DNA of 64,000 bases, taken from a virus. The position numbers were made by a program, and so were the translations under genes. The stretch covers positions 1 through 64,000 of IMG/VR virus record IMGVR_UViG_3300036791_000264. One strand, given 5' to 3'. Each line of letters starts with the position of its first letter. The first letter of the stretch is position 1. The notes under the pieces were generated by a model. That model was not told the origin of the DNA. It saw only the letters and a list, made by a program, of their open reading frames with translations, and ran no database searches. Positions 44,575-48,601 of this stretch are shown in pieces.

Positions 44575-44964
44575 TCAAGATGCCTGTCGCACCAGCACCC
44601 GGCGCCGTGCTGGCACGGTGGTCTCTTCCCCTTTGTCCTCTGCCAGAGCTTCAGCGACGGTCTTCTCCTGGATGCGCTCGTTGACGTCCCACTCCTGGAG
44701 GCCCCGGCGCGCCAGGGTCTGCTGGACGTACTGGTAGGGCCAGTTGTTCAGGTTGCGGGAGATCTCCATGATCCCCTGCCCGTCGAGGAACATGGCGACG
44801 ATGGTCTCGTCCCGGATCTGGGACTCGTCCCACTTCGCCATGGGGGTCTCGGAGCAGTCCTCGCTACACCAGAACACGAACCGTCCTATGCGGCGCCGGT
44901 AGCCCATGAACACGCCGCAGCAGCGGCAGCGCATCTCCTGAAGGTCATCATCCTGGTCTGCCAT
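44575..44964 (-). CDS. Zinc-finger and helix-turn-helix protein
   Basis: 129 aa. Residues 12-37 hold a Cys4 site (CRCC, then FWCSEDC). A resolvase-like HTH follows (ETIVAMFLDGQGIMEISRNL, then YQYVQQTLARRGL). The C-terminus is Glu/Arg-rich. It probably binds DNA. The layout 'Cys cluster, then HTH counting on a spaced repeat' is common in small phage regulators. TAATG couples it to the gene upstream. Confidence 0.78.
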   Translation of the reverse strand: MADQDDDLQEMRCRCCGVFMGYRRRIGRFVFWCSEDCSETPMAKWDESQIRDETIVAMFLDGQGIMEISRNLNNWPYQYVQQTLARRGLQEWDVNERIQEKTVAEALAEDKGEETTVPARRRVLVRQAS

Positions 44965-45206
44965 TAGCTGGCCTTCCTGAGGGCGGCGATGACCTCGTCC
45001 AGGTAGCTGGCCGGGAAGACGGCGCCGCTCATGTTCTGCCCATTGGGGAGCAAGTTGATGCCAACTCGGATGTAGTCGTCACCACCTCCGGTGGCGATCC
45101 GGGTGATCCGGACCTCGCGGCTGTCGCCCAGCTTGACCCGGCTCAGGATCTTGGGGGGTCGGATCGTCCTGGTGGGGCCTGGCTTGGTGGTCTTACTTTC
45201 TGACAT
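44964..45206 (-). CDS. Hypothetical basic beta-strand protein
   Basis: 80 aa, overlapping the upstream gene by 14 nt. A Lys/Thr/Pro-rich N-terminus (SESKTTKPGPTRTIRPPKIL) is followed by an alternating beta pattern (DSREVRITRIATGGGDDYIR, NMSGAVFPASYLDEVIAALR). The strand-strand-helix order loosely resembles PC4-type ssDNA-binding proteins, but the match is not good enough to name it. It is cotranslated with the zinc/HTH protein. Confidence 0.65.
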   Translation of the reverse strand: MSESKTTKPGPTRTIRPPKILSRVKLGDSREVRITRIATGGGDDYIRVGINLLPNGQNMSGAVFPASYLDEVIAALRKAS

Positions 45207-46209
45207 GGAATACTCGATCTTTCTCTATGAGGGGGAGGTGATCTGGCCCCTTGACGCAGGCCGATACGGTGGTCTCACGGTAGTTGCCGTGCTTGTCTAT
45301 CCAGCGGCGCTTGTGTTCACGCACTCGCCAGCGATGCGACCACACCACTAGCTGGGGGACATGGTCGGGGTCGGTGATGGTGGGCGGTCGATCCACGGGA
45401 CGCAGGTCGACCACGGTTACCTCTGACAGCGGGCTGTGCGCCCGCTTGAGCCGCTTCAGCATGGGCCGGTCAGCCGGCATGCGGAAGGGGATCTGCTCCT
45501 GCACGAACTCCCACAGGGAGATCACGAAGGCATTGAATCGGTTGACCGAGAAGGCGTAGCTCTCCTTGTGCTTCTCGTACTCCTCACGGTCCCCGGCGGC
45601 GCCATGGAACTCGGCTAGTTCCTCAGGCTTGGACATGTCTTCATCAGTGAGGTTCTGTACCTTCTTGCCCCACGCCCAGGGGACGATGTGCAGGATGGGC
45701 AGGTCGCCACAGACTGAGGTGACTCCCTCCTTGCTACCGAACTCGGCGTACTCCATCTGGTTGATCTCATCCAGTTCGTCGTGGGCGTCGCTGAACTCAG
45801 TCATGACCACGCCCGCCCGTTCCTCTGACCACAGGATGGCCTTGACTGAGGTGACCCGACCACGGGCGTCCAGGATGTGGATGGGACGCTCCAGGTAGAT
45901 GAATCCTCTGGGACAGGGCAAGTCCTGGGGTAGGACGACCTCATGCTCGTGGGCCTCGTAGACATCGGTGAAGTCCCACAGGCGGGCGATGATCGGGCTG
46001 CGGACGTAGAAGGTCTCGGCGCTGTCGAGCCGGCTGATCAGGTACTCGTCCACCTTCCAAGGCTCGTCCAGGTCGCGCATGGTCACGTAGTTGTCGACCA
46101 TGCCCTGGAAGGTTTTGATAAACCCGTCCCGGTACTGGCTCGACTTCCACCAGCGCATCAGCTTGACCTGTTCCTCCAGCACATCGATGGGTCGGTAGAC
46201 GGTAGCCAT
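45193..46209 (-). CDS. Conserved-type phage protein of unknown function
   Basis: 338 aa from ATG 46209 (TGATG with the previous stop). Helical N-terminus (PIDVLEEQVKLMRWWKSSQY), a middle with RPIHILDARGRVTSVKAILW and acidic helices, and a C-terminal WSHRWRVREHKRRWIDKHGN followed by VSACVKGPDHLPLIEKDRVF. The last part matches a recurring 'hWRr...rr.w...kGP...p...k..v' ending in actinobacterial phage and mobile-element proteins whose role is not known to me. Confidence 0.75.
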   Translation of the reverse strand: MATVYRPIDVLEEQVKLMRWWKSSQYRDGFIKTFQGMVDNYVTMRDLDEPWKVDEYLISRLDSAETFYVRSPIIARLWDFTDVYEAHEHEVVLPQDLPCPRGFIYLERPIHILDARGRVTSVKAILWSEERAGVVMTEFSDAHDELDEINQMEYAEFGSKEGVTSVCGDLPILHIVPWAWGKKVQNLTDEDMSKPEELAEFHGAAGDREEYEKHKESYAFSVNRFNAFVISLWEFVQEQIPFRMPADRPMLKRLKRAHSPLSEVTVVDLRPVDRPPTITDPDHVPQLVVWSHRWRVREHKRRWIDKHGNYRETTVSACVKGPDHLPLIEKDRVFHVRK

Positions 46210-46750: not shown

Positions 46751-47026
46751 CTAGTAGTCCTCGTCTTCGTCTTCGTCCTCGTCCTCGTCGTCTGGATCCA
46801 GTTCGGTCCAGCCCCTGGCTGAGCCGATCTGGTCTCCGACGTAGTAGACGTGTGACTTGAAGGGGTTGATGGCCTTGTCGACCATGTCCTTTTGCTCCAT
46901 GACTGCTTCCATGGCTTCGGCCTCAGTGACCGGCTGCTCGCTGCCGTTGTAGTAGTTCTCCATCAGGTAGCGGACCACCTGGCTGCGGCTGGTTGTTTCC
47001 TCACCTCCGAGATAGCGCTTGCTCAT
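46751..47026 (-). CDS. Small acidic protein, partner of the GHKL-zincin
   Basis: 91 aa. ATG overlaps the GHKL-zincin stop (ATGA) and has GGAGG ahead. Helical start (SRSQVVRYLMENYYNGSEQP), TEAEAMEAVMEQKDMVDKA, then YYVGDQIGSARGWTELDP and a tail of 14 almost unbroken Asp/Glu residues. The acidic tail could mimic nucleic acid or keep a partner protein soluble. Tight coupling suggests it acts with the upstream ATPase-protease. Confidence 0.75.
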   Translation of the reverse strand: MSKRYLGGEETTSRSQVVRYLMENYYNGSEQPVTEAEAMEAVMEQKDMVDKAINPFKSHVYYVGDQIGSARGWTELDPDDEDEDEDEDEDY

Positions 47027-48483
47027 TTCTCACCTCCCCTGTACTGCTCTAGTTGAGTCGGGCAGGAGCGCATGCTGGCGCCGATGGTGGCGATGTCATG
47101 GATGAACCGGTCGGTGAAGTGGTCATCGGCGGTGGCATGGGTGAACTCGTGGATGATGAGGGCGTCCAGGGTCTCCTGGTCGACCCCATCGGGCCAGCCC
47201 TTGCCCAGGTGTCGCAGGTAGAAGGTGACCGTGCCATCACTCCAGGACGCCGGGTAGCGCTTGCCCCCGGTGCCGCAGTTGGTGGGCATGAACTTGACGT
47301 CTGGCTTGTACCCCAGGATGAAGTGCCCCACCTCCTGGACGTACCCGGCCACCGCATGCATGCCTTCGGTCCACTGCTCCACCGGGATGGGCGGGATGCC
47401 GTCCGGTGAGGTGGGAACTTGGGTCTGGATGACCTGGCCTGCCGGCTTGAAGGTCTCTCGCTCCCGTATGCGGTCTCGTATGTCACCGCTCAGGGACCGA
47501 CTGTGGATGATCGTGCGGTTCTGGTCGACGGCTCGCTTGGTGGCCTCCCAGTTGGAAGGGTCTGCGATGACAGCGTCCTTGCCGTAGGTGCCCACCATGA
47601 CTGAGTCGAACGCTTCGTCAGTGGCAATGGCAACGACGTCCTTGACCCAGGTGGACTTCTGATCGACAGAGGTCAGCAGGTCGAAGGTGGAGTTGAGCAT
47701 GATCTCCCGCAGCTTGCGGAGGTACGCAGGCTTGACGTTGTCACGGGCGCTGTTGAGGGGCACCTTCTGCCCCACGTTGATGTGGAACCGTCCATCGTGT
47801 TCCACCACCGGGATGCCTAGCTCGTAGATGTAGGGCCGATTGCCGGCTGCCTCAAACAGTTCGACGCTGGTGAGGCGCCTGGTGTCGCGCATGTTGCCCT
47901 CGGCGTCCCAGATAACGGTGTCGAGGGTCTCTTGTGTTGTCCGCACTGGCTCAGTCCGCTCGATGATCTCGTCGTTGAACTTGAAGACCACACCCTTGGG
48001 CACGATGATGGCCCGCATCAGGGTGACGAACTCAGCCGCCTCGGTCTTGTTCAGCTTGAGCCTGGCCTCCAGGATGGTGCCGTGCGGTGTCTTGGCTGCC
48101 TCTTCGACGCGTCCTGCCTTGGTGAAGCGGACACTGCCCTTGGTGGAGGTGATGGAAAGTAGACCGCCGTCGACAGCAATGGCAATCAGTTCCTTCTCCC
48201 CCTGGCCGAAACGGCCACGAGCCTCAGGATCCTCGCGCCGGTTCGATGCTGCGAACAGAGTCCAGGCGTCCTTGAGATTGGTGAACCCATCGGGGTCGTT
48301 GTCCTTGATGACGAGGTCAGCCCAGCCATCCTTCTGTGCGAAGGTGACCAGGACGACGTCGGTGTGGGTGTCGAAGGCGTTGGACAGACCTTCAACCAGG
48401 ATGCGCGGCTTGCCCTTGTTCTGCAAGGTTTGCCGGTACCCTTGGATGTCGATCTCCAACACCTGGGTGGTGTATTTAGCCAT
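47023..48483 (-). CDS. GHKL (Hsp90/MutL-type) ATPase fused to HExxH zincin domain
   Basis: 486 aa from ATG 48483, 6 nt after TATGAT. The N-terminal domain has the Bergerat ATP fold: N-box EGLSNAFD (Glu31, Asn35), G1 loop DNDPDGF (61-67) and G2 loop GRFGQGEKE (90-98). A second alpha/beta domain follows (about 110-330). The C-terminal ~110 residues contain ALIIHEFTHATADDH (HEFTH 445-449), the zinc motif of metallopeptidases, after GTVTFYLRHLGKGW. The third zinc ligand is not certain. GHKL proteins usually act as conformational clamps, so an ATP-gated protease is conceivable but unproven. Confidence 0.82.
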   Translation of the reverse strand: MAKYTTQVLEIDIQGYRQTLQNKGKPRILVEGLSNAFDTHTDVVLVTFAQKDGWADLVIKDNDPDGFTNLKDAWTLFAASNRREDPEARGRFGQGEKELIAIAVDGGLLSITSTKGSVRFTKAGRVEEAAKTPHGTILEARLKLNKTEAAEFVTLMRAIIVPKGVVFKFNDEIIERTEPVRTTQETLDTVIWDAEGNMRDTRRLTSVELFEAAGNRPYIYELGIPVVEHDGRFHINVGQKVPLNSARDNVKPAYLRKLREIMLNSTFDLLTSVDQKSTWVKDVVAIATDEAFDSVMVGTYGKDAVIADPSNWEATKRAVDQNRTIIHSRSLSGDIRDRIRERETFKPAGQVIQTQVPTSPDGIPPIPVEQWTEGMHAVAGYVQEVGHFILGYKPDVKFMPTNCGTGGKRYPASWSDGTVTFYLRHLGKGWPDGVDQETLDALIIHEFTHATADDHFTDRFIHDIATIGASMRSCPTQLEQYRGGEK

Positions 48484-48601
48484 GTGTACATCATAGCATG
48501 TCACATGTGAAGAGTGTTGGCAGCATGTGGACAGATTTGTGTGACACACGTCACACCAAGGGTGCTCACACCTAACTGCTCACTCTGATATGCTATCAGT
48601 C
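48484..48601. promoter_or_regulatory. Divergent control region with palindromes
   Basis: Between the GHKL-zincin (leftward) and the gene at 48602 (rightward). It contains TATGAT 6 nt before the leftward ATG and TATGCT 7 nt before the rightward ATG. It also holds the palindrome TCACATGTGA (48501-48510), the inverted repeat GTGTGAC-acac-GTCACAC (48539-48556) and TGATA-tgc-TATCA (48586-48598) lying on the rightward -10. The repeated TGTGA/TCACA half-sites suggest an operator for one dimeric repressor. Confidence 0.6.

Follow-up and report, generated by a model that had tools for sequence, protein, structure and literature searches.

The gene described here lies on the minus strand of a window of 64,000 nucleotides, which is the whole stretch of viral DNA that was analysed, and it encodes a protein of 486 amino acids in which an N-terminal GHKL-type ATPase region is fused to a C-terminal zincin-like domain (Table 1). 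The ATG is at 48483 and the stop at 47025..47023, and the plus strand across 47023-48483 is broken by stops. The residue numbers N35 and E446 used in an earlier note on this DNA agree with this start. The source record is a 114.5-kb virus, and since it carries a terminase, an SPP1-type portal, a sheath-like protein, a DnaB-type helicase and a SNF2 helicase it is a genuine tailed phage.

The fusion gene heads a minus-strand run in which it is followed by the genes at 46751, 46209, 45193, 44964 and 44575, and the same order is found in L001, a contig carrying one of the closest relatives. The earlier note had placed the gene alone with a small ORF encoding an acidic tail; this ORF does adjoin it, but the gene is the first of a longer run and does not stand alone. 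Gene 46209 encodes a 157-aa protein with hydrophobic stretches and gene 44964 an 80-aa protein. The 338-aa product of 45193-46209 has as its sole match phrog_15934 (unknown function), which covers the last ~85 residues, and the 129-aa product of 44575-44964 presents paired cysteines and a helix-turn-helix-like segment and is without a Pfam or PHROG match.

The region upstream had been described as a palindrome-rich promoter. This description needs correction: it comes down to one inverted repeat of 10 nt (90% complementary, 4-nt gap, 48536-48559), several inverted repeats of 6-7 nt and a weaker 18-nt pair (72%), and no sigma-70-like match was found. The 10-nt repeat, TTTGTGTGAC-4-GTCACACCAA, lies in the gap separating the fusion gene from the divergent gene at 48590 and is operator-like.

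Table 1. Features of the fusion gene and of its immediate neighbour, in window coordinates
Feature	Position	Strand	Basis
GHKL ATPase-zincin fusion gene	47023..48483	-	486 aa, stop included; family alignments, AF2 pLDDT 90.6
GHKL/Bergerat ATPase domain, residues ~10-180	47944..48456	-	HATPase_c_3 in 68/84; hhalign rIIA 1.7e-6, MutL 5.2e-6
N-box E31-xxx-N35-xx-D38	48370..48393	-	Invariant 84/84
G1 motif DNDPDGF, residues 61-67	48283..48303	-	D61, G66 invariant
G2 motif GRFGQGEKE, residues 90-98	48190..48216	-	G90, G95, K97 invariant
Transducer-like middle domain, residues 181-300, Q239-K/R240-x-P-L...R247	47584..47943	-	Q239, R247 invariant; high AF2 confidence
Connector, residues 301-363	47395..47583	-	G301, D308, E313 conserved; AF2 low confidence ~351-360
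C-terminal zincin-like domain, residues 364-486	47026..47394	-	AF2 alone pLDDT 93.0, pTM 0.87; hhalign YgjP prob 94.6
HEFTH, residues 445-449, two proposed His ligands and proposed catalytic Glu446	47137..47151	-	H445, E446, H449 in 84/84
His455, proposed third zinc ligand (HExxH-x5-H)	47119..47121	-	83/84; aligned with NH of YgjP
91-aa protein with acidic tail	46751..47026	-	ATGA overlap with fusion gene; lineage-specific neighbour, homologue only in L001/L002

The ATPase region and the zincin-like domain

No curated cut-off in Pfam, PHROGs, PADLOC or NCBIfam was passed by the window protein alone, and the argument is therefore built on its relatives; the conservation counts given here refer to 84 full-length aligned members. 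The N-box, G1 and G2 motifs had been read as marks of a GHKL ATPase, and the family strengthens this reading, its conservation putting the N-box, G1, G2 and HEFTH motifs well outside what chance would give. Residues E31, N35, D38, D61, G66, G90, G95 and K97, together with Q239 and R247 of the middle domain, are invariant in all 84 members, and position 240 is Lys in 81 and Arg in three. Pfam HATPase_c_3 was found in 68 members (best E 4.8e-8), the window copy being too divergent to match it. Beyond HATPase_c_3, HATPase_c and SACS there was no family-level Pfam match for the GHKL part, and HSP90 (PF00183) was matched by 0/84 at E <= 0.05. Profile-profile comparison of the N-terminal part (hhalign) gave 1.7e-6 for rIIA, 5.2e-6 for MutL and 1.1e-4 for HtpG. 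Assignment of the domain to one GHKL clade was considered and set aside, as rIIA and MutL score about the same and Hsp90 somewhat lower.

The AlphaFold2 model of the whole protein, built on the 84-member alignment, reached a pLDDT of 90.6 and a pTM of 0.75, and its N-terminus is predicted to be of Bergerat type, so that the failure to form such a fold, named in the earlier note as one possible refutation, did not occur. The top Foldseek matches are Hsp90/TRAP1 (1.5e-11), topoVI-B (1.4e-7) and MORC3 (1.7e-7), and among viral proteins RIIA-like phage proteins and the unnamed A0A1B1ITP9 (7e-31) were matched. Judged by its motifs and relatives, the N-terminal part is a member of the GHKL ATPase superfamily and would be expected to hydrolyse ATP.

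With Hsp90/TRAP1 as best PDB matches, the protein might act as an Hsp90-like chaperone or processing factor for phage proteins in virion assembly or maturation, with the peptidase built in. Jumbo phages do carry chaperone-peptidase combinations, for example MoxR together with a metallopeptidase-vWA fusion (PMC7824862). However, the fusion gene lies outside the structural genes of the window, and it is sporadic and has varying neighbours, unlike maturation proteases, and we regard this role as very unlikely.

In the C-terminal part, HEFTH had been taken as the sign of a zincin. H445, E446 and H449 are present in all 84 members and the site has the consensus LLIHEFGHxYxxDHLSxxYxxALxxLGA, that is HExxH-x5-H. 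The third His, ten residues past the first His of HExxH, is conserved (His455, 83 of 84) and in register with that of YgjP, which makes it the candidate third zinc ligand. In an alignment of 105 rows the few C-terminal exceptions are truncated or frame-broken contigs or differences in placement. The GHKL residues and HExxH are kept even in rows at 24-27% identity and in the fast-evolving branch of the window and L001, and Picosynechococcus members, at 20-21% to the window protein, retain both the GHKL and the HExxH-x5-H sites. With both sites intact over a broad phage family, the proposed fusion of a GHKL domain to an HExxH-type domain holds.

Comparison of the C-terminal domain with YgjP (hhalign) gave a probability of 94.6 and an E-value of 7.2e-8, with HExxH, the third His and also the preceding strands and helix in register, and the negative controls, in which the domain profile was run against rIIA, HtpG and MutL, stayed below a probability of 1. 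Pfam at E <= 0.05 detected WLM weakly in 6/84 (best 0.0016) and YgjP in 1/84 (1.4e-4), and at the curated level the Picosynechococcus member L008 scores 17.1 bits for YgjP against a cut-off of 26. AlphaFold2 predicted the C-terminal 123 residues alone with a pLDDT of 93.0 and a pTM of 0.87. The objection foreseen in the earlier note, that HEFTH falls in a helix with no zinc geometry, did not arise: a helix modelled with confidence, 436-448, has HExxH at its end, and since zincins carry HExxH at a helix end this helix is not evidence against zinc. The best Foldseek matches of the domain are mostly zincins, M4 enzymes and YbeY among them, with no match to a solved structure individually significant (selecase, E 0.016; VgrG2b effector, 0.085; vibriolysin, 0.29; PprI, 0.5; Wss1, 0.77). 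Spacing, alignment and helix point to a putative zinc site in a probable single-domain, zincin-like module, and the fusion protein is predicted to be proteolytic. A metzincin does not fit well: the site is spaced as in HExxHxxGxxH, yet the family does not keep the Gly, and the chain continues for only ~30 residues after His455.

At ~120 aa the domain is minimal, little of it lies beyond the third His, and it could be imagined as a zinc-stabilised recognition module devoid of peptidase activity. A purely structural zinc site would not need Glu446, yet this residue is invariant in 84/84, and we consider such a module extremely unlikely.

The HExxH-x5-H spacing is that of Wss1/WLM and YgjP. Together with the WLM and YgjP matches in Pfam, the appearance of Wss1 in the Foldseek list and MutL and MORC among the GHKL relatives, it would fit a DNA-linked protease of the Wss1/SPRTN style, in which the GHKL clamp would sit on DNA, as MutL and MORC clamps load on DNA, and the zincin would remove proteins bound or crosslinked to the phage DNA, host restriction or silencing proteins included. 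This is nevertheless unlikely: no DNA-binding domain was seen in the fusion protein, the clamp region is not basic (the net charge of the middle domain averages -6.7 and the family pI is 6.1) and replication or repair genes are not a conserved neighbour. YgjP-like and WLM (Wss1, SPRTN-related) zincins further differ from the fusion in that the WGSC motif of YgjP is absent from the family and that its zincin is joined to an ATPase.

Distribution of the family and its genomic contexts

Six aligned members were used for a pattern search, which returned 193 relatives in IMG/VR, on contigs of up to 458 kb, and ~30 on bacterial and archaeal contigs; the 80 best IMG/VR relatives were retained. A few plasmids of Methylibium, Rhodovastum and Bosea carry homologues, as do more distantly those of Picosynechococcus (21-25%). 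The closest relatives, at 65-66% identity, are found on two IMG/VR contigs, L001 and L002, and the 485-kb uncultured phage LR745208 has a homologue at 32% identity. When four different members were run by tblastn against 50,697 named phage records, this phage alone matched along most of the query length. Among cellular genomes the family was present in 2/398 Pseudomonadota, the seed genome counted, and in 1/296 Actinobacteria, this one being the seed genome itself. The large terminase phrog_2 was detectable in 8/16 virus records tested. In a quick tree the viral and cellular copies interleave, forcing at least six changes, and the window and L001 are on a long branch of 1.84 changes per column. 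The family is large and unnamed, and its carriers are for the most part uncultivated phages, often of very large size; because bacterial copies exist, the gene is not purely viral.

The fusion was not described in the literature searched for GHKL with HExxH, metallopeptidase or WLM and for paraMORC with metallopeptidase, a scope from which preprints and many subscription journals fell out. The GHKL-zincin family is real and widespread, a new combination of known parts and apparently undescribed.

No neighbour is conserved family-wide over ~120 loci, shared neighbours being confined to close clades. The acidic protein adjoins the fusion gene in the window, L001 and L002 only, and in L001 the stop/start overlap between the two genes is lost. 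It was accordingly dropped as a general component, and with it the three-part system of ATP clamp, protease and acidic partner put forward in the earlier note. The note's suggestion of an anti-host function is plausible. As there is no conserved neighbour, the protein most likely works as a functional unit by itself and is probably self-sufficient.

Some individual loci are worth describing. In LR745208 a second HExxH ORF, VFAHEMGHHVYK, of 454 aa (L003 4197-5561) adjoins the family gene and is apparently unrelated to it. A SIR2-HerA anti-phage pair is located ~3 kb from the Rhodovastum plasmid copy (L005 5770-13449, identical in sequence to L017 in IMG/VR), whose element also carries phage tail genes. 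Picosynechococcus plasmids (L008 11385-17856, L009 11383-16660) have an operon on one strand in which a diadenylate cyclase (DAC) is followed by a distant GHKL/HExxH protein and then by a CHAT-TPR protein, possibly a cyclic-dinucleotide-linked protease system. These two contexts give a hint of conflict biology.

Such bacterial and plasmid copies would suit a defence or superinfection-exclusion effector of mobile elements, in which the GHKL domain senses an invading phage and the peptidase hits a cell target, comparable to the nuclease of paraMORC3/VcSduA. VcSduA, a GHKL protein with a nuclease, is the precedent, as its ATPase and nuclease mutants both lose anti-phage activity (PMC12137116). 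It shares with the fusion a GHKL domain and a C-terminal effector enzyme, but its effector is a PD-(D/E)xK nuclease and that of the fusion a zincin, and the Shedu nuclease domain DUF4263 was matched by 0/84 members in Pfam. Most copies found, however, sit in viral contigs, and genomes rarely carry the family (besides the seed, one match in 398 Pseudomonadota and none in 296 Actinobacteria), which leaves the effector reading distinctly unlikely.

Proposed mechanism and relation to known GHKL proteins

GHKL ATPases power topoisomerases, mismatch repair, chaperones and gene silencing. Hsp90/HtpG/TRAP1, MutL, MORC and topoVI-B share the Bergerat fold and transducer with the fusion at a low identity of 8-12%; we know of none that carries a peptidase, nor of any GHKL ATPase that drives a protease within the same chain. 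If the reading preferred here, an ATP-gated metalloprotease, is true, the fusion would be the first GHKL machine with proteolysis as output.

In the GHKL cycle, ATP binding orders the lid and makes the N-terminal domains dimerise, while the middle domain supplies a basic residue that touches the nucleotide. In the fusion protein, ATP would be bound by the N-terminal GHKL domain, and transient dimerisation of the GHKL domains would close the clamp, as in other GHKL machines, with Lys240 and Arg247 of the middle domain as candidate nucleotide sensors for which known GHKL enzymes suggest a catalytic role. Closure of the clamp may capture a client, either protein or protein-DNA, and may present it to the C-terminal zincin or unmask the latter, in which His445, His449 and His455 would hold the Zn and Glu446 would be the general base. 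The data show the identity of the domains, the conservation of the two sites and the spread of the family, and from there we infer ATP hydrolysis, the dimer clamp, zinc binding, proteolysis and also the target.

As biochemistry, an ATP-gated metalloprotease is likely. A host protein is suggested as the target by the patchy distribution, the lack of fixed partners and the parallel to rIIA and GHKL-nuclease proteins; most likely it would be one involved in defence or one hit during takeover. We lean slightly towards a stand-alone ATP-gated metalloprotease of phages that would act on some host protein. Counter-defence or host takeover as the role, taken alone, is a tentative proposal drawn by analogy, and the combination of this role with the ATP-gated metalloprotease is somewhat doubtful. 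With some reserve we also put forward that the fusion may represent an undescribed enzyme class, a GHKL clamp gating a zincin, which serves as a single-gene weapon of counter-defence or host reprogramming in many uncultivated phages and is nearly absent from cultivated ones. At least 193 viral relatives against one match in the 50,697 named phage records amount to a large blind spot. The family moreover offers two clean active sites for mutation. Confirmation of ATP-gated proteolysis would give a direct handle on the clients captured by GHKL clamps, and possibly an answer to the role of the variable C-termini in rIIA-like counter-defence proteins.

The rIIA orthologues of jumbo phages are described as counter-defence proteins which consist of GHKL and a highly variable C-terminus (PMC7824862), and the classical rII phenotype of T4 is its exclusion by RexAB (PMC11077077). 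Like the fusion, rIIA (the T4 'protector from prophage-induced early lysis') has an N-terminal GHKL domain followed by a different C-terminal module and occurs in large phages, and its profile finds family members directly (G013, 3.5e-6; LR745208, 1.9e-4). Nevertheless rIIA has 725 aa against 486 aa, the zincin C-terminus is found only in the fusion, and the GGFGLGSKSPF-type motif of rIIA (G[GA]xG[LV]G[SC]KS) is replaced by GRFxxGEK in the fusion family. Orthology with rIIA was rejected, given the absence of this motif and the separate true rIIA of G011. Replacement of rIIA by the fusion as a general rule was likewise discarded: in G011, a 458-kb virus, the true rIIA is a separate gene at 299734-300693 (L163) and coexists with the GHKL-zincin gene.
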